Shown here piece after piece: positions 8,490 to 42,768 of a DNA stretch of 42,880 nt. Every line of letters starts with the position of its first letter. Positions within the stretch are counted from its first letter, which is position 1. The translations under genes and the position numbers were made by a program. The stretch comes from an uncultured Bacteroidales bacterium (lineage in GTDB: Bacteria; Bacteroidota; Bacteroidia; Bacteroidales; Bacteroidaceae). Location: assembly GCA_902798685.1 (NCBI GenBank), contig CADBXO010000029.1, forward strand, positions 1 through 42,880, read 5' to 3'. The notes beneath the pieces were generated by a model. It saw only the letters and a program-made list of their open reading frames with translations. It searched no databases and was not told the origin of the DNA.

Positions 8490-10735
8490 ATGGAGGAAGC
8501 GAATCTTGTAAAGGACCTTGCGCTGATACTGATTTCAGCCGGTGTTTTTACCATCATATCTAAGGCACTCAAGCAGCCGCTCATTCTGGGTTACATCGTG
8601 GCCGGTTTCCTGGTGGGACCGCACATGGGTCTTTTCCCCACTGTCACCAGCACGGCCGAGGTTAAGGAGTGGTCCGATATAGGCATCATCTTCCTGCTGT
8701 TCGCATTGGGACTGGAGTTCAGTTTCAAGAAACTGCTCAAGGTGGGTAGCAGTGCCCTGATAACCGCCATGACGCAGTGCGTGGGCATGTTCATACTGGG
8801 TTTCCTGGTGGGCGAGGCCATAGGCTGGAGCAACATGGAATCCATATTCCTGGGCGGTATGCTCTCCATGTCATCGACCACAATCATCATCAAGGCATAT
8901 GACGATCTGGGTTACAAGGACCGTCCGTTCGCCCCGCTGGTGTTCGGCGCGCTGGTGTTTGAGGACCTGATTGCCGTAGTGCTCATGGTGCTGCTTTCAA
9001 CCATGGCAGTGTCAAATAAATTCGCAGGCGGAGAGATGCTCATGGGCCTTGCAAAACTGGTATTCTTCCTGATACTGTGGTTCCTTGTGGGTATCTATAT
9101 GATTCCCACCATACTCAAGAAAGCCCATAAATACCTGAATGACGAGATACTGCTGCTGGTAAGTCTTGGCCTCTGTTTTGCCATGGTGTCACTGGCCAGT
9201 CTGGCCGGATTCTCCGAGGCCCTGGGCGCATTCGTGATGGGCTCAATATTGGCCGAAACTCTTGAGAGTGAGCATATCATGCATCTTACCAAGGGCATCA
9301 AGGACCTGTTCGGAGCCATATTCTTTGTATCGGTAGGTATGATGGTCGATCCGCACGTGATTGCGGAGCATTGGGGCACGATTCTTGTCCTGACCATTAC
9401 GGTAATGGTGGGAATACTGTTCTTCTCTACATCAGGTGCCGTTCTGGCAGGTCAGGGACTGGACAACGCGGTACACGCCGGTTTCAGCCTGGCGCAGTTG
9501 GGTGAGTTCTCGTTCATCATTGCAGGTCTGGGCGTATCGTTGGGCGTGATGCGTGATTTCATCTATCCGGTCATCATCACGGTATCGGTCATAACCACAT
9601 TCACCACACCTTATATGATAAAGGCGGGTACTCCGGCATACCAATACCTTATCAGGAAACTGCCCGAGCAGTTTGTGGCCAGGATAAACTCATTCTCAAG
9701 TCTGGAGCGTAACAATACGGCCGCCGCACAGAACGAGTGGAAACGTCTTATCAAGGAGGTGTCTCTGAGAGTGCTGCTTTACGGAGTGATTCTTATTGCT
9801 ATTGACCTGGGATCACATCTGTTCCTGGACAAGGTTATCATAAGCCGTCTGGACGGTTTCACACCGTTTGTACGCAACCTTATCAGCGTGGTGATCACGC
9901 TCGTGGTAATGTCTCCGTTCCTGGTGGGAATAGCCATATCGGGCGATGAGATAAACCGTTCATCAATCAAACTCATCAAAGCCCGTCAGGCCAACGTGTG
10001 GCCGGTAATATCACTGGCGCTTCTGCGTATCCTGATTGCCATGGGATTTGTGCTGAGCGTGATTTGGCTTTCTGGACATTCCTGCTCATACTGATATCGG
10101 GCGTGGCGTTCTTCTTCATCGGCCGCCGTTCAATAAGCAAGTTTACCATTGTCGAGGACCGATTCATGGCCAATCTGAACGAGAAGGAACAGCAGCAGCG
10201 CCGCATGGCACCCGTCACCTCAAAGGTATCGGACAAGATGTCGCGTTACAACGTCAAGACCGATATGCTTACCATTTCGCCCGATTCACTCTACGCGGGC
10301 AAGCAGCTGCGTGAGCTCCCGTTCCGACACAAGTCAGGTGTGAACATAGTCAAGATAGTACGTGGCAGCCGCACCATTATGATTCCTACAGGCACCGAGA
10401 TGGTTTTCCCGTATGACAAACTGCTGGCCGTAGGCACCAAGGAGCAGTTGGCTGAGTTCCGCAAGGATATGAATGAGAACGTCTTTGTCCAGGAGCCCGC
10501 GGCCGATGCACTTGCACCGCGTGAGTTCCAGTTGGATTCTATAACGCTCAAGGAGGATTCATGGCTTACCGGAAAGACACTGCTTGAGACCGATATGCGA
10601 TCATACGGCTGTATGGTGATAAGTGTGGTAAGCGACGGTCAAATAACAACCAACCCCAAACCGGACTACCGGTTCAGGGCTGGTGATATAGTCTGGCTTG
10701 CAGGCGAGAAATCGGCCTGCGAGTGGTGGGATTAA
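8490..10735 (+). pseudogene. KefB-type CPA2 cation/proton antiporter with RCK_C domains, frameshifted
   Basis: The first frame (8490-10094) encodes a CPA2 antiporter: about 12 membrane segments, with LGYIVAGFLVGPHMG near the N-terminus and the conserved GAFVMGSILAET stretch. It runs into a TGA at 10092 just after LSVIWLSGHSCSY. The -1 frame continues at once with a membrane segment (AFWTFLLILISG, from about 10070) and two TrkA_C/RCK_C domains (about 10260-10450 and 10530-10720) to the TAA at 10733. Restoring one base near 10060-10070 yields a 748-residue protein, the usual length in this phylum. No TrkA_N nucleotide-binding domain is present. Either the strain carries a one-base deletion that truncates the regulatory tail, or this is an assembly error. 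Confidence 0.85.
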
Positions 10736-27135: not shown

Positions 27136-28503
<1,368 letters not shown>

Positions 28504-28511
<8 letters not shown>

Positions 28512-28534
28512 TCCCTTACTAATATTTAATTTTG
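28504..28534 (+). promoter_or_regulatory. Promoter of the PEP/pyruvate-binding gene, inside the gdh terminator region
   Basis: TTG (28504-28506), 20 bases, then TAATTTTG (28527-28534) match the promoter consensus. The -33 box lies in the last codons of gdhA and the last G of the -7 box is the first base of the terminator stem. Transcription would start near 28541, within the hairpin, so the new message would carry only part of the stem. Confidence 0.55.
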
Positions 28535-28569
28535 GGCTGGCTTAACTGAAAGCCGGCCCAATTTTTTTT
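28534..28569 (+). terminator. Intrinsic terminator of glutamate dehydrogenase
   Basis: GGGCTGGCTT (28534-28543), loop AACTGA, AAGCCGGCCC (28550-28559), one G-U pair, then AA and eight T (28562-28569). A textbook terminator, ending only seven bases before the next start codon. Confidence 0.93.
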
Positions 28570-28576
28570 CTACAGG

Positions 28577-31528
28577 ATGGCAGAGAACGAACGTAATCAA
28601 ACGGTACTCATGGCCAGGAGGATCAAGAAGATACTTCTGGTATGCAACAATTATGACAGTTATTCACTCGAGGAGGACGGTCATATTGAGGCACAGATTG
28701 CACAGGACTATGCGGAACTCAACCTGAGTAACCCGCCTGACATTATCCGTGTTGAGACAACCGTCGAGGCATTGGAACTGGCCAGGACCGATAAATCGTT
28801 CGATCTGGTCATAACCATGTACAACGTGGGTGAGGTTGATGTGTTTGAATTCTCCAAGCGTATGAAGGAGATTGCTCCCGATACGCCCATAGTCCTGCTG
28901 GCCACATTCTCGCGCGAGATATTCAACCGCATGCAGGACCGTGCAAACAGCGCCATAGACTGGTTCTTCTGCTGGAACAACTCCACCGACCTGATGATAG
29001 CCATCATCAAGTTGCTTGAGGACCGCATGAATGCCGAACACGACATACTGGAGGAGGGCGTGCGTGCCATACTTCTGATAGAGGACTCGGTGCGCTACTA
29101 CTCCACCTATCTGCCGGTACTTTACAAACTGGTGCTGCAGCAGAACATAGAGTCTATCCGTGATACTCTGAACGAGAAACAGCAGACCCTGCGTAAGCGC
29201 TCCCGCCCCAAGATCCTGATGGCTACCTGTTATGATGATGCCGTCGAGTTGTACGAGCGTTACAAGCAGAACATACTGGGAGTGATATCGGACATTGGAT
29301 TCGTAATCCATAAGGACGATGCCCCCGAGACCGAGAAACTGGACGCCGGTATAGACCTGGTGAACCATATTCATGCAGATAACCCCACAATGCCTATCCT
29401 GATGCAGTCATCACAGGAGAGCATGCGCGAGGTTGCCGAGAACCTGGGTGTGGGCTTTGTGGTCAAGACATCCAAGACCCTTACACATGACCTGTCGGAG
29501 TACATAGGCCGTGAATTCGGATTCGGTGATTTTGTAGTGACTGATCCCACTACCGGTGAGGAACTGCTCCGTGCCAGTGACCTGTACGGATTTGAAAAGA
29601 TCATCAAGAACATATCGGACCGTGATTTCAGGCGTTTGTCCGATAAGAACTACATATCCCGCTGGCTGTTCGCACGCGGTCTGTTTGCCCTGGGTAAGCA
29701 GCTGCGTCCGCTCACCATCCACAATGATTCGGAACTGCCCGAGATTCGCCGCATCAACCTTGAGGTGATACATGATTTCCGTATCAACCAGGGAGTAGGT
29801 GTGGTGGCCAAGTTCGATCCCGCAACCTACAACGACACCATCCGTTTTGCCCGTCTGGGTAACGGATCGCTGGGAGGTAAGGCGCGTGGTCTGGCATTCC
29901 TGAACCATATCTTGGTCAAGTACGATATGTATGACAAGTATGAGGATGTGCGTATAACCGTGCCCCGCACCCTTGTCATAACCACCGAATATTTTGACCG
30001 TTTCATCATAGACAACGGACTTCAGTACGTCATCAACTCTGATATTTCCGATGAGGAGATACTGGCCGAGTTCGTGGCATCGACCCTGCCGCGTGACCTG
30101 ATTGACAACCTGAAGGTATTCATACACAATATCCGCAAGCCGCTTGCCGTACGTTCATCGTCAAAACTGGAGGATTCATACTACCAGCCGTTCGCCGGAG
30201 TCTACTCGACATACATGATTCCGCGTACCGACAACGAGGACCAGCAGCTGCGTCTGCTCTCCAAGGCCATCAAGAGCGTATACGCATCAATCTTCTTTGC
30301 ATCGTCGCGTAGTTACATAACCGCTACGGCCAATGTGATATCGGAGGAGAAGATGGCAATCATACTGCAGGAGATATGCGGCAGCAGCGACCAGGGTTAC
30401 TATTTCCCCACACTGTCAGGTGTGGCCCGTTCGGTCAACTTCTACCCAATAGGCCATGAGAAGGCCGAAGACGGTATCGTCAAGGTTGCGTTCGGTCTGG
30501 GTAAGGCTGTCGTGGACGGTGACCAGGTGCTGCGTTTCTCACCCAAGTACCCCAAGCACGTGCTGCAGACATCGACCGTGGAGCAGACCATGACCGAGAC
30601 CCAGAAGTCAATGTTCGCCCTGAACCTGAAACCCGAGAAGTTCACCACATCTATCGATGATGCAGTGAACCTGGAGCGCATAAGCATAGCGGACTGCGAG
30701 AAGTTCCGCAACCTGAAACACGTGGTTTCGACCTTTGATTTGGAGAACCAGCGAATGGTAGATTCGGCATATCCAACTGGTCCCCGATTCGTAACGTTCG
30801 CCCAGATGCTCAAGTACAAGACCTTCCCGCTGGCCGAGATAGTTGACGAACTGCTTGAGATAGCCCGCAAGGAGATGAAATGCGGCGTCGAGCTGGAGTT
30901 TGCGGCCGATATAGACCGCGGCGGAAACACCAACAAACTGCCCAAGTTCAATGTCCTTCAGATTCGTCCCATATCGGTCGACAGCCGCAATGTGGATGTT
31001 GACTGGGATGAGATAGACACTGACGGCGCGCTGATAAAGTCGGAGAGCGCACTAGGAACGGGCTGGATCAAGGGACTGACCGATGTGATATACCTCAAAC
31101 TTGATACATTCGATACCCAAAAGACCGTACAGATGGCTCGTGAACTGGCTGCCTTGAACAACCGCATGCGTGCCCAGGGACTCAACTATGTCCTTATCGG
31201 TTACGGCCGATGGGGTTCAAGCATACCGTCACTGGGCGTTCCCGTACAGTGGGGTGACATATCGGAGGCAAAGGTCATTGTGGAGTGCAGCCTGGAGAAT
31301 TTCCGTGTGGATCCCAGTCAGGGTACCCATTTCTTCCAGAACCTGACATCGTTCAATGCCGGTTACATCAACGTAGATCCGTACTCCGGCAGGGGTGATG
31401 TATTTGACTATGAGGCACTTGCGAACCTGCCTGTAATAGAGGAGACGGAATACCTGCGTCACGTAAAGTTTGACCGAGAACTTGAAATATGCATTGACGG
31501 CCGAAATAGTAAAGCTTTTGTAAAATAA
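28577..31528 (+). CDS. PEP/pyruvate-binding (PEP synthase N-domain) protein with two receiver-like domains
   Basis: 983 residues. Residues about 15-150 are a receiver-like domain that has lost its key residues: CNN replaces the acidic pocket and ITMYNVG replaces the phosphorylated Asp. Residues about 165-310 are a second receiver that keeps them: Glu169-Asp170 (ILLIEDS), Asp239 (VISDIGF), a Ser in MQSSQ and Lys297 (FVVKTS). Residues about 400-800 are a PPDK_N/PEP-synthase ATP-grasp module: GNGSLGGKARGL, RSSSKLEDSYYQPFAGVY and LQIRPIS. The phosphohistidine swivel and the PEP-binding barrel of true PEP synthase are missing. It is therefore probably not a complete gluconeogenic enzyme; a phosphorylation-controlled ATP-dependent phosphotransferase is a guess. 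It follows gdhA directly. Confidence 0.85.
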   Translation: MAENERNQTVLMARRIKKILLVCNNYDSYSLEEDGHIEAQIAQDYAELNLSNPPDIIRVETTVEALELARTDKSFDLVITMYNVGEVDVFEFSKRMKEIAPDTPIVLLATFSREIFNRMQDRANSAIDWFFCWNNSTDLMIAIIKLLEDRMNAEHDILEEGVRAILLIEDSVRYYSTYLPVLYKLVLQQNIESIRDTLNEKQQTLRKRSRPKILMATCYDDAVELYERYKQNILGVISDIGFVIHKDDAPETEKLDAGIDLVNHIHADNPTMPILMQSSQESMREVAENLGVGFVVKTSKTLTHDLSEYIGREFGFGDFVVTDPTTGEELLRASDLYGFEKIIKNISDRDFRRLSDKNYISRWLFARGLFALGKQLRPLTIHNDSELPEIRRINLEVIHDFRINQGVGVVAKFDPATYNDTIRFARLGNGSLGGKARGLAFLNHILVKYDMYDKYEDVRITVPRTLVITTEYFDRFIIDNGLQYVINSDISDEEILAEFVASTLPRDLIDNLKVFIHNIRKPLAVRSSSKLEDSYYQPFAGVYSTYMIPRTDNEDQQLRLLSKAIKSVYASIFFASSRSYITATANVISEEKMAIILQEICGSSDQGYYFPTLSGVARSVNFYPIGHEKAEDGIVKVAFGLGKAVVDGDQVLRFSPKYPKHVLQTSTVEQTMTETQKSMFALNLKPEKFTTSIDDAVNLERISIADCEKFRNLKHVVSTFDLENQRMVDSAYPTGPRFVTFAQMLKYKTFPLAEIVDELLEIARKEMKCGVELEFAADIDRGGNTNKLPKFNVLQIRPISVDSRNVDVDWDEIDTDGALIKSESALGTGWIKGLTDVIYLKLDTFDTQKTVQMARELAALNNRMRAQGLNYVLIGYGRWGSSIPSLGVPVQWGDISEAKVIVECSLENFRVDPSQGTHFFQNLTSFNAGYINVDPYSGRGDVFDYEALANLPVIEETEYLRHVKFDRELEICIDGRNSKAFVK

Positions 31529-31543
31529 ATTTGTAAAATTTTG

Positions 31544-31551
31544 TATATTTG
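31544..31551 (+). promoter_or_regulatory. -7 box of the giant surface-protein gene
   Basis: TATATTTG (31544-31551) fits TAnnTTTG, 65 bases before the ATG. The nearest TTTG upstream (31517-31520) is 23 bases away, longer than usual. A second -7-like box, TAAATTTG, lies at 31526-31533. Confidence 0.45.
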
Positions 31552-31616
31552 CGTCTCGTTAAGTCAATAGTCTAGAAAGGACAATAATGTATTCATAATA
31601 TTCCTACCAATCAATT

Positions 31617-34600
31617 ATGTTTAACTCTTTTGAGAGGGAGCACGGGAGTGCTCTCGCGGGTCGTGGTGTTTTCCAAAAGCACCTTCTGATTGTTATTTCT
31701 TTCCTGTTACTGGGAAGTCTCAGTGCCCAGGCTGACTGCTGGCACTTCAGGGGCAACGGTAATCACGCGGTGGTTAACCACCCGTCGTTTGACCGTCCTT
31801 ATCTGAGGTTTACCGCCATGTTCTTTGACAAGACGGCAAACAACAACGGTTATTTTGTCAAACAGAAACCGACCCAGAACGGCGCCATCCCCAGTAGCGC
31901 TGCCGATGGCCCGGCCATTTTCATCGACGGACAGTATGCATGTTCGCCTATCTATGAGTTTGGTTGGAACGGCGACGGTGACGGTGCATGGAGTGCCTGC
32001 GGCAATGATACATGGTGGGGAAACACCTACAAAGCCAAGATTAACGGCATAACCTACACCATCAAGTTCTACAACCCGTATCATGACGGTGACAGCAAAC
32101 GTATGTATGTGCACGTCCTGATATTCCCGGATGCCCTGCCTCATGGCAAGACCACTACCGTAAAGATTGCGGGTATGTGGAAGATGAACAGGGACCAGAA
32201 GACTCCTGTCGAGGAGGCATATACCTGGAATTTCAACGGTCTGGGAACTTTTGGCGTATCAAGCCCTACGGCAGTAACATATGACTTTGACCACATTTTG
32301 TTAAGCGGTAACCTGAAGGCCGGATATGGTACAAATACCGTCGGTTCTTTTGAGGGTGCCAATCTCAATAACATTGCATGGACAAAGCAACTGACCACAA
32401 CGGCTTCATTTAATTCCAGTCTCACCTCATTCACCCGTGAGAAAATGGAGTTTAAGGGCAGAACTGATTACTATAATGAGGTCAAGACTTATTTCGAGTA
32501 CGTAATTACACGTACGGGCTATACTCCTGCCGAATTGAATGCGCTGCCTGACAACCAGAGACTGAGCATGAAATATTACATGTGGTATGTCGTGTACGTA
32601 CCCGGTTACATGCGTGCCAAAGACCTTCAGGCATCAACGGCAAATATCTGGAACAGGGAGGTGAACCTTTCCTGGGGAACCGAGGGAAATGACGGTAACG
32701 GTACATGGAGCATATACCGTTATGAAAATTCCGACCTCAAGAACGGTGTACTTGTAGCAGAGAATATCAACAAGTCAACCCGTGCCTATACGGTAGTCAA
32801 TCCTGCCTATGACAAGGATTACTATTATGAGGTTTCATTCATACCTGTTAACGGTGAACGCCGTAACGAGTTGTCAACTCATGTGGCAAGCAATCTTAAG
32901 CGTGAATGGTCTTTCAGCAATTTCAAGGCTGACACAGACACTACGGGTTCCAAGATTATCCTGAAATGGAACCATAACCCCATCGGTAACGCCAGCAAGA
33001 AGAGTTATACACTTCATGTGCAGCGCTCCACAGACTATAAGGTGAGCGATCCCGGTAAGGCTACATGGGAGGATATCCATACCGTAACCATTACCAATGA
33101 CTCAACCAACATGGGTTCATATACCGATGCTTCGGGTCTTTCAGCAAACCATAACTATTTCTACCGTCTGGTAGTGAATGTGTTGGAAAAGGATATGACC
33201 AGCCAGGTGGTTAACAAGAAACTGGGTGGTTCCAAGATTCTCTCGTTCTCGGCAACCAGAGGATCATACAACAATATGGTCAAGGTAAAATGGACTGTAC
33301 AGCAGGTGGGTTCCGATGTGACCAACTTCATCATCCAGCGTCGTCCTCTGGGCAGCAACGATGAGTTTGCATGGGCCGATATCTACAGCACCAGCGGTAC
33401 CGCTTCGGGTTACAGTTATGATGATGTGACTGCGCTGCCCGGTACCTACAACGAGTACAAGGTGGTTGTATGGAGTCAGAACGGCAAGACCGTGTCATAT
33501 GATGATTCCGAAGTGGCCGACGGATTCAGTCTCTCTACAGGAACGCTGAGCGGTAACATCACATATGGAACAGGAACTGCAGTAGCAGGTGCCAAGGTGG
33601 TGCTCAAACGTCAGGATGACGATGGCGGCTTGTCATCGGGAATGCACTCCGTAAGGTTCTCAGGCAACGGTACCGGTTTCAAGTACGATTGCGACCAGGC
33701 TACGCTCAAGAATCTGTTGGAGAAGGATTTCTCTGTTCAGATGTACGTCAATCCTGATACTGTCATGGCCGGTAACAACCGAAGCATCCTGCTTGATGTA
33801 TCGTACTCCTTTACATTGGATCTGAGATATGATGATGCAAAGAAACTGTATCACCCGGCTGTATGGCTCCAGGGAGATACCTATTTTACAAATCTTGATG
33901 TAAAACCGGGTGAGTGGACACATCTGACCGTATCACATAAACAGGGAACTTATACAATCTTGTCAATTACAAGAGGAGACAGCATCTTATCGGATACGGT
34001 TAAGAGCGGCAATGAAATAGTGAAAACAGATGCTAAAGTCAACGTTACGTTGGCCGATGGCATATCCATTGCCAACAATTCAAGTTTCAGCCAGACCGAG
34101 TATTACAACGGTTACATTGATGAGTTCCGTCTGTTCACACGTGCACTTACGGATAAGGAGATTCTCAAGAACTATAACCATCCGCTTACAGGAAGCGAGA
34201 AAGGATTGGCCATCTATTATCCGTTTGACGAGGGCATGACCGTACAGAGTCTGGCATATGACCTGTCCAGGACCAACAATGTCAGCAACGGCCGTCATGG
34301 CTTGTCCAAGATTCCGGCAGCCAGCAGCAACTACATTCCCAATGAGGACCAGTTGAGCCTGATGGCATATACTGACAGTCTGGGATACTATGAGGTTCGC
34401 GGTATTCCTTATTCAGGAGAGGGTACAAGTTACAGCGTTATCCCCAAGATGGGAATACATGAGTTCTCACCTGTTTCCAAGTCCCGTTTTGTAAGTCAGG
34501 CTTCACTCATACACAACGGTGTTGACTTTGAGGACGTATCATCATTCCCTGTAAGCGGTAAGATATTCTATTCAGGTACCGATTATCCCGTTGAGGGTGC

Positions 34601-37600
34601 CAACCTCTACGTGGACGGAATGATCTGCGCCAGTGACGGCAAGATCATTGAGAGTGCCGAGGACGGAACGTTTACCATAAGCGTACCCATAGGAAACCAC
34701 TTCATTGAGGTGGCCAAGAGCGGTCACGTGTTTGCCAACGGCCGTTATCCTGCCGATCCTGAGGGGCGTGGCGTGAAGAAGAATTTCAACCAGGCCATAA
34801 GCGGACTTGAGTTCCGTGATACCACTCTTGTCAACTATACCGGACGTGTAGTAGGTGGTAACATTGAGGGTGAAAAACCCGTCGGATTCGGACAGAGCCA
34901 TAACAACATAGGTGTTACCAAACTTGTTCTCACACCTCTGAATGACCTCTACCGCCTGAATGTGGTTAAGCAGAAGAGGGGAGAGACATCATTCTCTTAT
35001 GAGACCAACAATGAGATTGTTGATGTAGCATCGGCATCAAATCAGATCAAGAGCAAGTCTTGGCGCGGTGCAGGAACAGCTGACTGTCGTAAGATAATCA
35101 TTCTTACAGACTCGCTTACCGGTGAGTTCTCTGCCATGCTGCCTCCTCTGCAGTATAAGGTATCGGCTCCTGTAGTGGTTGCCATAGACTCCGTTATAGG
35201 TGACCCCAAGGAGTCAGCTCTGGCAGACCTCTCCAAACCTCTGGTTACCTACAAGGATTCTGTTACCAATGAAGACGGAGGTTACGATTACTATGAGTAC
35301 AACACTCTGTACAAGAAGACCTGTCACAGCAAACCCATATTTACCGTTACCCAGTCAGATCACAATGACGGCTGTTTCGGTATAAAGGAGTATGAGGTTA
35401 AGGATGCTCAGGGCAGCATTGTCCTGAACAACTTCTATGATCCTTACGAACCTGACAAAGATAAGGTTTATACATATGGTGGCGCAATCTTCATTATGAA
35501 GGATACCTACAAGTTCAACATCTCCGGTAGGGAGGAGTACCGTAACTATGACGCCAACTTATATGCTCCGGAGGTATCTGTTGTTCCTCTTGCCGGAACC
35601 GTGGTATCCATAGACAACGCCCTCTCATCAGAGCAGGCTGTTTATATTGAAGGCAACAGCGCCGGTATGGAGGCCGGATCATTAAGCGAGCTCAAGAGCA
35701 ACCAACTTACTCTTGACAGTCTTGGCCTGGCTACATATGTATGGAAGGCCGGATATCCCAATATCGCCTCTCCGTATAAGCGTACCATATCCATATCATA
35801 TGACATAGAAAACAGGACCTACCGCTGGAATGACGGCGCACCTTTATACGGTATCGTGCTGGGTTCACTGCCTACGGGTAACAACTTTATCACCGCAGGT
35901 CCCGATGTGCTTGACATGGTGCTGCGTGATCCCCCCGGAACAAAGTCCAAGACCGAGTGGACATCGGGTACCGTCACCACTAAATCACAGTCAACAGGTG
36001 CGGTATGGAACAGTGAGAACAATATTGAGACCCAGACCAAGTTGGGACCGAAGGTTGAGACCGTTACAGGTATAGGCCTTGCCATCATCGAGGATATCGA
36101 GAGCAAGGTAGACCTTACCGTAGGTGCCAAGGTTACCGTTGAGGGTGAGGATGCATCATCATGGAGTCGTTCAATCACCGCTACCAGGACAATCAGCACA
36201 TCCGATGAGGCAGAGTATGTAGGTGCCCAGGGTGATGTATTCATAGGCAGTTCAACCAACATCATTTTCGGTATGGCACGCAACGTGGGATTCAAACGCG
36301 TGGGTAATACAAGTGATGTTGAACTGACCCTGACTGATATTCTGACAACCGGACTCTCATTCGGTACAGAGTTTGCATACACACAGAACTATATTGAGAA
36401 TGTGCTCATTCCCAACCTCAAGAAACTGCGTGACGGCATGCTCAAGACCGTGTCTGAGATTCCTGGCTATGTGAATGACGGCAAGCATCCGGTTTACATC
36501 ACTACCATGAGTCCCGATGATGCAGGATTCGGAGCCAGCAACAATGATAAGGATTTGTTCGGTGCAAACGCCACTCCCGGACCTTCAACAGATGGCCCGT
36601 CATACAAGATGGTAGTGCCCAACGGTTCCAAGGAGAACTATACTGACAGTGTGGAGTGGTGCAATACACAGATCCGCAACTGGGAGAAGCATCTGGCCAA
36701 CAACGAGATGCAGAAGGTTCGTGCCTTTAAGTTGGCCGAAGCCAAGAGCGACAGCGTTAAGGCCACAAACCTCTCATTTGACTCAGGTACCAGCATAACC
36801 AACACTAAGGAGACTGAGGATAAGACCGGATCAAAATACGAGAATACCGTATCGGCCGCTGCCATTATAGGCGCCACCACCGGCTTCGCCATCAATAGCG
36901 TGGGCGTTCAGTTTGATATCAAGACTGAGACCGGAGGCGGTGAGCACATTGAGCGCGAGGAAGAGGAGAGCCATACCGCAAGCTTCAGCTATACTCTGGC
37001 TGAGGAGGGTGATGACGATGCCCTTACGGTCGATGTCTATGAGTACGGCATGTTCGGTCCCATATTCCGCACCCGTGGCGGTCAGACCTGTGGCCCGTAC
37101 GAGGGTGAGGTGGTAACCAAATACTACGAGCCCGGAACAACCATCATGGAGGCTACCATGCAGATTGAGGTTCCTCAGATTGATGTTGACGTAAGGACCA
37201 TGACCGATGTACCGTCAGGCGGAACAGCCAACTACGTTCTCAGACTCTCAAATGCATCTCAGATTGATGAGGATGTCTATTACCGTCTGCTGGTCAACGA
37301 TGAGACCAACCCCAACGGTGCCAACCTGATGATTGACGGAAAGCCTATCACAGACAGCCGTATCATCAAGATTCCTGCCGGTACTACCGTTACTAAGGCA
37401 CTTCAGCTCAAGCAGACCAATCCCAGTATCCTCAAGTATGAGCATATTGAGATAGTCCTGGCATCACAGAGCCAGTATGATCCTACCAGCACATGGGATG
37501 TGATTGCTGACACTGTTGATGTATCGGCCTATTTCGTTCCCTCATCTTCACCGGTTGAGTTGGATCTGTCAAATACAGTCATGAATAACGAGACGGGCAG

Positions 37601-38627
37601 CAAGCTCAGGATCTCATTCTTTGGATTTGACCGCAACTATAACGGACTTAAGGCATTCCGCCTGCAGTATAAGAGAGAGGGCGGTCTGGATTGGACACGC
37701 ATCCATGAGTATGTGCTCAATACCAAGGATAAGGAGAGCGGCAACGAGATGCTGCCTTCATCCGGCACACAGGTCGGCTATACCTTCAATATGAGTTCAT
37801 TACCCGATGGTGATTACCTGTTCCGCGTGGTATCAGTAAGCACCAACGGTGATGAGGAGGTTTACAGATACAGTAATGAGATGGCTCTTGTCAAGGATAT
37901 GCAGAGCCCGCGTTCAATGGGTCAGCCTGAGCCCAGTGACGGTGTGCTTGACATAGGCGATGAGCTTAGCGTTACATTCAACGAGCCTATCCTTAAGGGC
38001 CGCATCACTGCCGAGTCCAACTTTATCGTAACCGGCGTGCTTAACGGCAGCAAGATTGAGCATGAGACTGCACTCAGCCTTAAGGGCGGTTCAAGTGCAA
38101 AGGCTCTGGCAAGCACTGAGGCTGGAATCAACCTGGCCAAGAAGGATTTTGCAATTGATGCATGGGTCAACATTACTTCTGCAGGTACACTCTTCAGCCA
38201 CGGTCAGGGCGCACAGAGACTGACTGCCGGTGTTGACGCTGCAGGTCATCTTATCGTGACAGTTGCAGACAGCGTATGCACATCTTTAAAGAGCATTCCT
38301 TTCAACAAGTGGATATACCTAACCATGAGTCTTACAAAGGATGGCGCACTGACTGCCGAGGCTGCCGTTGACGATGATTTCGTTCTTCTGTTCAGCGGCC
38401 TCAATACCATGGCTTATGAGGGTAACGGCCGTCTGAGCGTAGGATGCGGTGCCGATGCCGCCATTCATGAGTTGCTGCTCTGGGATGAGGCTCATGACAT
38501 GACTACAGCCCTGTTGAACCGCTCTGTAACCAAGAGTCCTTCAACCCGTCATCTGATAGGTTACTGGAAGATGAATGAGGGTGAGGGTACCTCTATACGT
38601 GACTACAGCCGCAACCGTCATATGTGA
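31617..38627 (+). CDS. Giant LamG/FN3 surface protein, N-terminal part (truncated by a 25-bp duplication)
   Basis: 2336 residues before an early TGA. A long N-region and hydrophobic core (LLIVISFLLLGSLSAQA) form the signal peptide. Then come an unknown beta-rich domain (about 45-330), three FN3-like domains (about 335-425, 430-535, 540-635), a CarboxypepD_reg-like fold (about 642-970) interrupted by a LamG-type lectin domain (about 672-880), a second regulatory-like domain (about 977-1045), a long region without recognised domains (about 1050-2130, with many charged and Ser/Thr-rich stretches), and a second LamG domain (about 2150-2320). The protein should be an exported adhesin- or matrix-like protein. 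The reading frame ends inside the second copy of a tandem repeat; without it the frame joins the next entry, 3199 residues in all. Confidence 0.85.
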   Translation: MFNSFEREHGSALAGRGVFQKHLLIVISFLLLGSLSAQADCWHFRGNGNHAVVNHPSFDRPYLRFTAMFFDKTANNNGYFVKQKPTQNGAIPSSAADGPAIFIDGQYACSPIYEFGWNGDGDGAWSACGNDTWWGNTYKAKINGITYTIKFYNPYHDGDSKRMYVHVLIFPDALPHGKTTTVKIAGMWKMNRDQKTPVEEAYTWNFNGLGTFGVSSPTAVTYDFDHILLSGNLKAGYGTNTVGSFEGANLNNIAWTKQLTTTASFNSSLTSFTREKMEFKGRTDYYNEVKTYFEYVITRTGYTPAELNALPDNQRLSMKYYMWYVVYVPGYMRAKDLQASTANIWNREVNLSWGTEGNDGNGTWSIYRYENSDLKNGVLVAENINKSTRAYTVVNPAYDKDYYYEVSFIPVNGERRNELSTHVASNLKREWSFSNFKADTDTTGSKIILKWNHNPIGNASKKSYTLHVQRSTDYKVSDPGKATWEDIHTVTITNDSTNMGSYTDASGLSANHNYFYRLVVNVLEKDMTSQVVNKKLGGSKILSFSATRGSYNNMVKVKWTVQQVGSDVTNFIIQRRPLGSNDEFAWADIYSTSGTASGYSYDDVTALPGTYNEYKVVVWSQNGKTVSYDDSEVADGFSLSTGTLSGNITYGTGTAVAGAKVVLKRQDDDGGLSSGMHSVRFSGNGTGFKYDCDQATLKNLLEKDFSVQMYVNPDTVMAGNNRSILLDVSYSFTLDLRYDDAKKLYHPAVWLQGDTYFTNLDVKPGEWTHLTVSHKQGTYTILSITRGDSILSDTVKSGNEIVKTDAKVNVTLADGISIANNSSFSQTEYYNGYIDEFRLFTRALTDKEILKNYNHPLTGSEKGLAIYYPFDEGMTVQSLAYDLSRTNNVSNGRHGLSKIPAASSNYIPNEDQLSLMAYTDSLGYYEVRGIPYSGEGTSYSVIPKMGIHEFSPVSKSRFVSQASLIHNGVDFEDVSSFPVSGKIFYSGTDYPVEGANLYVDGMICASDGKIIESAEDGTFTISVPIGNHFIEVAKSGHVFANGRYPADPEGRGVKKNFNQAISGLEFRDTTLVNYTGRVVGGNIEGEKPVGFGQSHNNIGVTKLVLTPLNDLYRLNVVKQKRGETSFSYETNNEIVDVASASNQIKSKSWRGAGTADCRKIIILTDSLTGEFSAMLPPLQYKVSAPVVVAIDSVIGDPKESALADLSKPLVTYKDSVTNEDGGYDYYEYNTLYKKTCHSKPIFTVTQSDHNDGCFGIKEYEVKDAQGSIVLNNFYDPYEPDKDKVYTYGGAIFIMKDTYKFNISGREEYRNYDANLYAPEVSVVPLAGTVVSIDNALSSEQAVYIEGNSAGMEAGSLSELKSNQLTLDSLGLATYVWKAGYPNIASPYKRTISISYDIENRTYRWNDGAPLYGIVLGSLPTGNNFITAGPDVLDMVLRDPPGTKSKTEWTSGTVTTKSQSTGAVWNSENNIETQTKLGPKVETVTGIGLAIIEDIESKVDLTVGAKVTVEGEDASSWSRSITATRTISTSDEAEYVGAQGDVFIGSSTNIIFGMARNVGFKRVGNTSDVELTLTDILTTGLSFGTEFAYTQNYIENVLIPNLKKLRDGMLKTVSEIPGYVNDGKHPVYITTMSPDDAGFGASNNDKDLFGANATPGPSTDGPSYKMVVPNGSKENYTDSVEWCNTQIRNWEKHLANNEMQKVRAFKLAEAKSDSVKATNLSFDSGTSITNTKETEDKTGSKYENTVSAAAIIGATTGFAINSVGVQFDIKTETGGGEHIEREEEESHTASFSYTLAEEGDDDALTVDVYEYGMFGPIFRTRGGQTCGPYEGEVVTKYYEPGTTIMEATMQIEVPQIDVDVRTMTDVPSGGTANYVLRLSNASQIDEDVYYRLLVNDETNPNGANLMIDGKPITDSRIIKIPAGTTVTKALQLKQTNPSILKYEHIEIVLASQSQYDPTSTWDVIADTVDVSAYFVPSSSPVELDLSNTVMNNETGSKLRISFFGFDRNYNGLKAFRLQYKREGGLDWTRIHEYVLNTKDKESGNEMLPSSGTQVGYTFNMSSLPDGDYLFRVVSVSTNGDEEVYRYSNEMALVKDMQSPRSMGQPEPSDGVLDIGDELSVTFNEPILKGRITAESNFIVTGVLNGSKIEHETALSLKGGSSAKALASTEAGINLAKKDFAIDAWVNITSAGTLFSHGQGAQRLTAGVDAAGHLIVTVADSVCTSLKSIPFNKWIYLTMSLTKDGALTAEAAVDDDFVLLFSGLNTMAYEGNGRLSVGCGADAAIHELLLWDEAHDMTTALLNRSVTKSPSTRHLIGYWKMNEGEGTSIRDYSRNRHM

Positions 38628-38648
38628 CTACAGCCGCAACCGTCATAT
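38599..38648 (+). repeat. Perfect 25-bp tandem duplication causing a frameshift
   Basis: The unit GTGACTACAGCCGCAACC plus GTCATAT occurs at 38599-38623 and again, without a mismatch, at 38624-38648. Twenty-five is not a multiple of three, so the second copy shifts the frame by one and creates the TGA at 38625-38627. Deleting one copy reads through as RDYSRNRHMTMTDEAWY. The following base (38649) also fits the period. Confidence 0.97.
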
Positions 38649-41241
38649 GACTATGACCGATGAGGCATGGTATATCAATAATGAGAACCTCTCAGTAAGC
38701 CTGGACGGTGACCATTTCATTGAGATGGGTGCTGCATCCCTGCCTGTCGTTGCATCCGGTGACTATGTAGTTGAGTTCTGGATGCGTGCCGCCAAGCAGA
38801 ATGGCGATGCTCAGCTGCTGCAGATGGGTGATGTAGCCTTCTGGCTCAATGCCGCCGGTGAACTGCAGTTCACGGCCAAGGGTGCTTATCTGCCCGCCGG
38901 TACCAGCCAGGATATGGCTGTATCGGGAGTTATCCTGAATGACAACACCTGGCATCATGTGGCACTGAGCGTGCTGCGTCAGGGTGCCGCCTCCGTATAC
39001 GTGGACGGTGTACGCCGCCTGACCGTAAGTGAGGCCAATGTCGGCAATATCGTAACCAATAGCATGATAGCAGGTGCCCGCCGCATCACCGTATCGGCCG
39101 AGAATGCTGAGTATGAATTTGATCGCGCTCTGGTAGGATTCATTGATGAGATCCGTATCTGGGCTGCAACTCTTAACAGCAACCTGATAGTAAGCAACCG
39201 CAAGGTTCGCTTTACCGGAACGGAGAGCGGTCTGGCTGCCTACTATCCGTTTGAGATTAAGGATCTTGACGGATTCAATCAGGTGGTTACTAAGGGTGAG
39301 GTCAAGGATCTGTGCGGCAATGGCGACAACGCAGTCATGAGAACAATACAGGGCGTCCTGTCCACTCCGTCATTCACCGATGATGCTCCCGCACTGCGTA
39401 CCAAACCCTCCGAGACCAACGTAAGTTTCAGTTATGTGGCATCGGACGAGAAGGTGATCATCAACATTGATGAGAAACCTGAACGCATTGAGGGATGCAC
39501 CTTGAACTTCACCGTACGCGACCTGCTTGACAAGAACGGCAACTACTCTGAGCCTGCAATCTGGAGCGCGTTCGTGAACCGCAACGAACTTATATGGCAG
39601 GACGAGGCTGTAAGCGTCGAGCAGCAGGTTAAGGGTTCGGCTCAGTTTGCCGCAACCATTGAGAACCTGGGCGGACAGCAGCAGATGTGGACAATTGACG
39701 GTCTGCCTTCATGGCTCACCGCAAGTGCTGACTACGGTGTTGTGAACCCGCGCAGCAAGAGCACGATTACCTTCACTGTAAGCCCCTCAACGCCTATCGG
39801 CAAGTATGAGGAGACCATTTACCTGAAGGGTAACAACGGCATTGAGACTGCACTCACCGTCAACGTTAAGGTTAAGGGCCAGACTCCTGACTGGAGCGTT
39901 AACCCCAGACAGTATGAGAACTCAATGAATATGATTGCCACTCTTGATATCCTGGGCATCCAGAGCGAGGATGAGGATGACATCGTGGCTGCATTCATAG
40001 GCGACGAATGCCGTGGCATTGCACATCCTGTATACAAGGAGCGTTATGACCAGTACTTTGTCACAATGGATATCTACGGAGGCAACGACGCAGGTAAGCC
40101 TGTTACATTCCGTGCCTTTGACGCATCGACAGGTACTCTCTATCCCGAGGTTCTGCCCAATAAGTCATTCAACTTCCAGTTGCTTGAACTGAACGGCACA
40201 TACAATGATCCCGTATTGCTGACCGCAGTTGACAAGATTGAGCAGCAGACCGTTCTCAAGGAGGGTTGGAACTGGATCTCATTCTATGTCAAGGCCGATG
40301 TCATGACGATTGCATCGTTGTTGTCATCGATTGCCGAGGATGTTGAGATCATCAAGAGCCAGAACGCTTATCTGTCATTCGAGAGCGGTTCATGGGGTGG
40401 TGACCTTACCGGCGCTCTGAGCAACGGACAGATGTATGCCGTCAAGATGAAGAAGGAGCGTACCCTGCGCATAGTAGGTGAGCGTCTTGAGGTTACAGGC
40501 AATCCTGTCAACCTGTACAAGGGATGGAACTGGATAGGCTATTACGGCCGTCAGATCTCATCATTGGATAACGCACTGGCCGATGTGAACGCACAGGACG
40601 GTGATATGATCAGGGCTCTGAGCGGTATCGCTTACTACGACTCTTACGAGTGGGTGGGCTCACTGCTTATGCTTGAACCCGGTCAGGGCTACAAGTTCAA
40701 GAACGTCTCTAATCAGGACCGCTCGTTCCGTTATCCGTCATCGGTCGTTAATCTGGCTCCGATGCGCCGTGCTGCTGAGCAGGCACCTGCCCATACAGGC
40801 GTATTCCAGCCGGTTGACTTCCGCAACTACTCGGGTAATGCCACAATGGCTGTAAGGGTTTACAAGGACGGAGTAGTCCTGCCCAACGCCGAGATTGGCG
40901 TATTCGCCGACGGCGAGTGCCGTGCAGCCGCATTCACCAGCGAAAACGGTAAGGCATATCTTACCATCCCCGGTGATGAGAACGTGAAACTGACCTTCAA
41001 GGTGGCCGTCGGTGCCGAAATCATCGATGTTCCCGATCAGATTGATTATGAGACCGACGGAATATACGGATCACCCAAGAAGCCTGTCATATTCCTGATT
41101 GGCGATACCCCGACACGCGTAGCCGGTGTTGATGCCGATGCCGACAACGGTCAGGCTTATGACCTGCAGGGCCGCAAGGTTAATGACGGAACTGAGAAGG
41201 GCATCCTCATAATCAACGGAAAGAAGAGACTTAACAGATAA
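38649..41241 (+). CDS. Giant LamG/FN3 surface protein, C-terminal part (out of frame with its N-terminal part)
   Basis: The open frame reaches back to 38575, but real coding homology starts right after the duplication (MTMTDEAWYINNEN). It holds a third LamG domain (about 38690-39260, with AGARRITVS and GFIDEIRIW), a bridging segment, a BACON-like domain (about 39595-39880, with the motif DGLPSWLTAS), two related segments with EGWNWISF and KGWNWIGY (near 40261 and 40519), and a C-terminal tail YDLQGRKV...GILIINGKK resembling T9SS sorting tails seen in Prevotella and relatives. With no signal peptide of its own, this fragment cannot be exported unless the frame is restored. A strong terminator follows. 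Confidence 0.83.
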
Positions 41242-41260
41242 AGGAGTCAAAGTGATTGTG

Positions 41261-41304
41261 AAATCCCCCGGTGTCAAAAAAAGTGACATCGGGGGATTTT
41301 TTTT
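41261..41304 (+). terminator. Intrinsic terminator after the giant gene
   Basis: AAATCCCCCGGTGTCA (from 41261) pairs with TGACATCGGGGGATTT around a short A-rich loop, with one G-U pair, and runs into eight T ending at 41304. It is strong in the plus direction; the A-run on the left gives partial function on the other strand. Confidence 0.93.
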
Positions 41305-41306
41305 GC

Positions 41307-41314
41307 TAAATTTG
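41307..41314 (+). promoter_or_regulatory. -7 box of the carbon-starvation transporter gene
   Basis: TAAATTTG matches TAnnTTTG, two bases beyond the T-run of the preceding terminator and 36 bases before the ATG at 41350. A -33 box is not clear because the terminator stem is in that place. Confidence 0.55.
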
Positions 41315-41349
41315 TGCGTTTTAGAATCCGAATTCAGTAACAAAACAAT

Positions 41350-42768
41350 ATGCTAACATTCGTGATAGCTTTGATAGTCCTGGTCCTGGGCTATGTGTTC
41401 TACGGAAAATTCATTGAGCGTCTTTTCGGGGCTGATCCCAACCGTGAAGTGCCGGCCAAGAGTATGGCCGACGGCGTTGACTATATTGCAATGCCTACAT
41501 GGAAAGCCTACATGATCCAGTTCCTTAACATCGCAGGTCTGGGTCCGATATTCGGTGCCATCATGGGTGCCAAGTTCGGTACCGGCGCCTATCTCTGGAT
41601 CGTATTCGGAACCATCTTTGCAGGTAGCGTTCATGACTATCTGTCCGGTATGATATCCATGCGTCACGGAGGCGAGAGTCTGCCGCAGCTTATCGGCCGA
41701 TATCTGGGCGGCAGCGTTCAGAAGGTGTTCATCATATTCTCTATGGTGCTTCTGGTGCTGGTAGGTGCGGTGTTCGTATCACAGCCGGCCGATATCCTGG
41801 CACGTCTTACTCCCGGAACACTGGGCGTGAACTGGTGGATAGGCATCATATTCATCTACTACCTGATTGCAACACTGTTCCCCATTGACAAGATTATCGG
41901 TAAGTTCTATCCCATATTCGGTGCAGCTTTGCTGTTTATGGCATTCGGTATCATGGTGGCTCTGTTCGTGAACCGTCCCGAGCTGCCTGAGATCTGGAAC
42001 GGATTCGGCACCAAATATGACAAGAACCCCATATTCCCCATGATGTTCATATCGATTGCCTGCGGTGCCATTAGCGGATTCCACGCTACACAGTCTCCCC
42101 TTATGGCCCGATGCATGACCAATGAGACCAAGGGACGTATCGTGTTCTACGGCGCTATGATTTCCGAGGGTATCGTGGCTCTTATCTGGGCTGCCGCCGC
42201 TACCGCATACTTCGGGGAGCACGGAACTGACCAGGGTGCCGCCGCCATCGTGCTTGAGATATCCAAGACCTGGCTGGGTAAGGTGGGCGGTCTGCTTGCA
42301 ATACTGGGTGTTGTGGTCGCTCCTATCTCATCGGGCGATACCGCTTTGCGTTCGGCCCGACTCATCATTGCCGATTTTTTCCATATCAAGCAGAAATCCA
42401 TCGGCAGCCGTCTGGCCATAAGCGTTCCTCTGTTCATCATCACCCTTGGCGCACTGCTCTACAGCCTGCGCGACAAGGAGGGATTCAATATCATCTGGCG
42501 TTACTTTGCATGGTCAAACCAGACCCTGGCAGTGTTCACCCTGTGGGCTGTAACGGTCTATCTGACCCAGCATAAGAAGAATGTCCTGGTAACCCTTATC
42601 CCGGCCATGTTCATGACCATCGTCACCGTGACCTACATCTTCATGGCTCCCGAGGGATTCCGTCTGGCTCCGTGGATTGCCTATATCATCGCAGGTGTGG
42701 TATCATTGGCATTCCTGATTATCTATCTGATTTGGAAACGTCGTTTTGACAAACAAAATAACTCATGA
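41350..42768 (+). CDS. cstA: CstA-family carbon starvation transporter
   Basis: 472 residues with about 12-13 hydrophobic segments. CstA blocks are visible: GKFIERLFGADPNREVPAKS near the N-terminus, the GLGPIFGAIMGAKFG segment (about residue 60), HDYLSGMISMRHGGESLP, SGFHATQSPLMARC and ISSGDTALRSARLI. The protein is shorter than E. coli CstA (about 700 residues) and matches the compact CstA of Bacteroidetes. Family members import peptides or pyruvate when carbon is short. The next gene starts with an ATGA overlap, so the two are probably co-transcribed. Confidence 0.92.
   Translation: MLTFVIALIVLVLGYVFYGKFIERLFGADPNREVPAKSMADGVDYIAMPTWKAYMIQFLNIAGLGPIFGAIMGAKFGTGAYLWIVFGTIFAGSVHDYLSGMISMRHGGESLPQLIGRYLGGSVQKVFIIFSMVLLVLVGAVFVSQPADILARLTPGTLGVNWWIGIIFIYYLIATLFPIDKIIGKFYPIFGAALLFMAFGIMVALFVNRPELPEIWNGFGTKYDKNPIFPMMFISIACGAISGFHATQSPLMARCMTNETKGRIVFYGAMISEGIVALIWAAAATAYFGEHGTDQGAAAIVLEISKTWLGKVGGLLAILGVVVAPISSGDTALRSARLIIADFFHIKQKSIGSRLAISVPLFIITLGALLYSLRDKEGFNIIWRYFAWSNQTLAVFTLWAVTVYLTQHKKNVLVTLIPAMFMTIVTVTYIFMAPEGFRLAPWIAYIIAGVVSLAFLIIYLIWKRRFDKQNNS

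Follow-up and report, generated by a model that had tools for sequence, protein, structure and literature searches.

The gene for a large LamG protein is broken by a perfect 25 bp tandem duplication in the draft genome of an uncultured Bacteroidales bacterium. We consider the duplication to be a local assembly error of that draft, with a probability of about 0.9. Its presence in the assembled sequence is confirmed, but it is most likely not a biological feature; the organism itself most likely has an intact gene for a single protein of ~3200 residues. An assembly fold had been one of the options offered in an initial annotation of this DNA. It is the option that we favour, because the lesion is private to this assembly and because rpoC, dnaE, glyS, gdhA and vorB are broken in a similar way.

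Source of the DNA

The window, by which we mean the whole stretch of DNA analysed (42,880 bases), is the complete contig C29, one of 42 that make up a draft genome of 2,262,615 bases. The completeness of this draft is 83.74% and its contamination is 2.45%. The nearest named records are MAGs. These are Bacteroidaceae bacterium RGIG6538, from sheep reticulum, and the uncultured Bacteroidales RUG12752, RUG12511 and RUG11961. The RUG names come from a series used for a catalogue of MAGs from cattle rumen (PMC6785717).

A perfect duplication breaks the reading frame

We scanned the window for exact tandem duplications with periods of 8 to 399. Accepted matches either spanned one period or more with no fewer than 12 bases, or reached 20 bases or more. 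The sole duplication found lies at positions 38599–38649. Here, the sequence matches itself at an offset of 25 over 26 bases; by our own estimate, the likelihood of so long a match arising by chance is negligible. The exact match bears out the annotated pair of adjacent, identical 25-base copies. As a length of 25 is not divisible by 3, the duplication breaks the frame. Thus, the upstream frame terminates at a TGA within the second copy and the downstream frame carries the remainder of the same protein (Table 1). The initial annotation had described just such a shift into a TGA, and had given a length of 3199 residues for the restored protein. This length agrees with the arithmetic of the two frames and with the intact orthologue, which has 3197 residues counted from its methionine.

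Slippage at a local direct repeat was considered as a source of the second copy. By our reading of the sequence, the site has a single evident direct repeat, the 6 bp motif TGACTA, with a spacing of 23. Slippage was rejected, since this spacing would yield a 23 bp unit and the observed unit is 25 bp. The two ends of the duplication junction have only one base in common.

Relatives carry one copy and an unbroken gene

The initial annotation had called for a comparison with homologues, which we made. The C-terminal piece has some match in 22 of the 37 genomes of the genus, its own genome counted. The six closest loci are those of G006 and G032 (94% identity each), G026 (75%), G031 (73%), G030 (65%) and G025 (57%). 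In all six genomes, the gene is an open and unbroken frame of 3200–3245 aa. For four of them (G006, G032, G026 and G030) the site was aligned at the DNA level. All four have one copy, and the other 25 bases of the window appear as an insertion. We also counted near-full-length matches with at least 49% identity (n = 12), so leaving aside partial matches and those below 49%. The gene was unbroken in 10 of 10 such matches from other genomes and broken in both of those from the window's assembly. A remoter member of the family, L011 (G027:C25), is split by a frameshift.

The assembly contains other frame-breaking lesions

Nine further frame-breaking lesions, of 16 to ~170 bp, were found in the same assembly. 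Eight are deletions and one is a perfect duplication; two of the nine lie inside the window. In total, ten frame-breaking lesions fall within about a quarter of the draft genome. The lesions and the genes that they affect are listed in Table 1. Judged by this company, the 25 bp duplication looks like one of the assembly's set of errors. We class it with the other lesions because they have in common their size range, their frame-breaking effect and their privacy to the assembly.

Table 1. Features of the broken LamG protein gene and other lesions in the assembly. Positions are those of the window unless a contig or locus is named.
Feature	Location	Strand	Details
Tandem duplication, period 25, frame-breaking	38599..38649	+	Single copy in G006, G032, G026 and G030
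N-terminal piece of large LamG protein, 2336 aa	31617..38627	+	96.7% identity to intact G006 orthologue
C-terminal piece of same protein, 888 aa in frame	38575..41241	+	Open frame and matches in relatives
NADP-glutamate dehydrogenase (gdhA), frames of 270 and 229 aa	27172..28511	+	16 bp deletion near 27858
CPA2-type antiporter, frames of 568 and 245 aa	8388..10735	+	16 bp deletion near 10065; G026 frame 755 aa
vorB	Contig C15 (L043 12760–16227, together with glyS)		20 bp deletion and perfect 16 bp tandem duplication, ~300 bp apart at most
glyS (glycyl-tRNA synthetase)	Contig C15, adjoining vorB in L043		Split; 77 bp deletion
dnaE	Contig C19		52–53 bp deletion
xylB (xylulokinase)	Contig C1		~86 bp deletion
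rpoC	Contig C27		70 bp deletion and in-frame 45 bp gap; split into 516 and 946 aa
LamG paralogue	Contig C5 (L022)		169–172 bp deletion in LamG region, relative to G031 and G030 paralogues

The xylB lesion is based on alignment to one G028 locus, and the short N-terminal piece of xylB is without a family match. A perfect 27 bp tandem duplication at L041 7276–7330 is in frame; it lies in a frame of 301 aa and leaves its gene unbroken.

Essential genes are among those broken

Each of rpoC, dnaE and glyS has a single locus in the window's assembly, and second copies were not found. We searched all six frames of the respective loci for the conserved segments NADFDGD (rpoC), GPGRGSAAG (dnaE) and ETSIGxD (glyS). 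All three were absent. In the relatives checked, the segments are kept (2 of 2, 3 of 3 and 2 of 2, respectively). NADFDGD is the location of the RNA polymerase catalytic metal site. The rpoC product is 1439–1450 aa long in five of the six relatives searched and partial in G031. Among the 36 other genomes of the genus, the dnaE frame is at least 1237 aa in 33 and the glyS frame at least 512 aa in 29; some of the remainder are cut by contig ends. Since a living cell could not carry them all, the lesions in rpoC, dnaE and glyS are most simply read as local assembly errors. This assembly is 84% complete, and the part that is missing might conceivably hold another copy of an essential gene.

Errors of this kind most likely arose when contig pieces were put together at the wrong spacing. 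A short overlap left uncollapsed at the join would give a perfect duplication, and a short stretch omitted at the join would give a deletion. Local assembly errors do occur in MAGs, and IDBA-UD is particularly suspected, in the passages of Chen et al. (2020; PMC7111523) that deal with them. The same passages describe duplicate sequence at unmerged overlapping ends, with Ns between the copies. The lesions here resemble those errors, which are short wrong stretches within contigs that break genes, and which include duplicates at unmerged overlaps. Conversely, the copies in the window have no Ns between them, and the defining test in those passages is read support, whereas ours is the comparison with relatives together with the other lesions. 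Spurious pseudogenes that stem from sequencing and assembly, as set out in part of a further study (PMC11017572), are likewise breaks of assembly rather than evolutionary origin. However, that study states that MAGs are outside its assessment.

Frequency of lesions and controls

Five frame-breaking indels of 16–25 bp were confirmed against G026. They lie at 38599, 27858 and 10065, with two more in vorB. The comparison of the window's assembly (G000) with G026 spanned 123,098 to 147,554 aligned bases. The lesion rate against G026 was about one per 25–30 kb, a figure biased upward because two of the stretches (the window gene and vorB) were chosen with a lesion already known. In the reverse direction, no lesion was confirmed in G026, and the two positions flagged were both at gene edges. 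The gdhA lesion was missed by the length rule in one G026 comparison and is plain in other alignments. Flags dropped on inspection, all of them at gene edges, were one in L113 (3607), two for G026 against G000 and two for G026 against G030.

We also took genes that were picked regardless of lesions. Of these, rpoC is broken, and ileS (1167 aa), an ileS-family match of 899 aa that is probably valS, and sprA (2421 aa) are unbroken. The rpoB gene is cut by a contig end and was left out of this tally. Core genes are split inside contigs of other MAGs of the genus as well: dnaE and glyS in G002, glyS in G004 and G028, sprA in G005 and ileS in G025.

A scan for frame switches by codon usage encountered too many natural gene overlaps and was used only for picking candidates. 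In G000, 19 of 109 pairs passed it, as did 6 of 105 in G026 and 5 of 38 in other relatives. Where relatives or families allowed a check, the candidates were compared with these, and the other kept ones were judged by eye. Kept candidates that stand outside the lesion count are those in L035 near 8445, at the apt/uvrC boundary of L033 and in L046 near 1150. The idea that lesions favour the most conserved DNA, as from a tangled assembly graph, was unsupported; the percentiles of flank identity were spread widely, between 1 and 99.

Alternative explanations for the duplication

Small tandem duplications are a known class of mutation, and one of them may have inactivated the gene recently in a single strain. 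The identical copies, and the single copy in relatives, fit such a private event equally well. We nevertheless regard it as unlikely. The assembly holds nine comparable lesions, several of them in genes that cannot be lost, the junction overlap is one base, and the TGACTA spacing would yield a unit of another length. Widespread loss of genes might instead be genuine, in a decaying genome rich in young pseudogenes, and the many broken genes with one or two lesions apiece are what such a genome would contain. However, loss of rpoC, dnaE and glyS is incompatible with a living cell. In addition, the window and G006 otherwise show an ordinary level of DNA identity (95.0% over 11,354 aligned columns) and sprA is unbroken. 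Hence, genome decay is an extremely improbable explanation.

The first option put forward in the initial annotation was that a surface antigen might be switched ON and OFF reversibly at this site. Gain or loss of one 25 bp copy would turn the protein off or on and, in principle, a two-copy direct repeat could revert. We found no support for this proposal and think that there is hardly any chance of it being correct. The two-copy state is absent among the four relatives aligned at the site. In the paralogue on contig C5 the break is a deletion, contrary to what a duplication switch predicts, and comparable lesions extend beyond surface genes, as in the case of the perfect 16 bp duplication in vorB. 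The closest real switch is that of the Streptococcus pneumoniae capsule, where reversible duplications inside ORFs were described by Waite et al. (2001, 2003), as summarised in the relevant passage of PMC4243769. The likeness is a tandem duplication within the ORF of a surface-structure gene. Unlike the pneumococcal duplications, which that passage presents as reversible, the repeat in the window is seen in one state only, and essential genes are similarly hit. A duplication that is real in part of the population, and that switches the giant LamG protein quite separately from the assembly errors around it, is scarcely credible.

With a local assembly error as the preferred reading, broken genes in this draft genome are not readable as biology, given that rpoC and dnaE are among the lesions. 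Before pseudogenes or phase variation are claimed on the strength of this assembly, or of other MAGs of the genus in which core genes are split, support from reads is required. A fast test for such claims is to look for similar breaks in essential genes.

The large LamG protein and its neighbourhood

In Pfam, the intact orthologue has three Laminin_G_3 stretches, and the pieces in the window have two and one. The three LamG domains of the initial annotation are thus right for the unbroken protein and are divided between the pieces in the window. Its FN3-like domains come down to a single fn3 match of 21.3 bits, under the Pfam cut-off of 25 bits. A carboxypeptidase-regulatory match in the unbroken orthologue is also under the cut-off. 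By our own reading, the unbroken orthologue apparently starts with a signal sequence, and the C-terminal tail resembles T9SS sorting tails. The annotated sorting-like tail holds in that sense; the curated T9SS C-terminal sorting domain gave no NCBIfam match to the C-terminal piece in the window at E 0.001. All 37 genomes of the genus have a match above the cut-off to SprA (TIGR04189), the sole T9SS component profiled. A homologue of the large LamG protein, with 45% identity, occurs in Prevotella communis. The protein looks like an ordinary big secreted protein of its group.

As we read the neighbourhood, the order glutamate dehydrogenase, 983 aa protein, LamG protein and CstA-like protein (27172–42768) recurs in G006, G026 and other relatives. 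The 983 aa protein, encoded between the glutamate dehydrogenase and LamG genes, has weak PEP-synthase-like matches.
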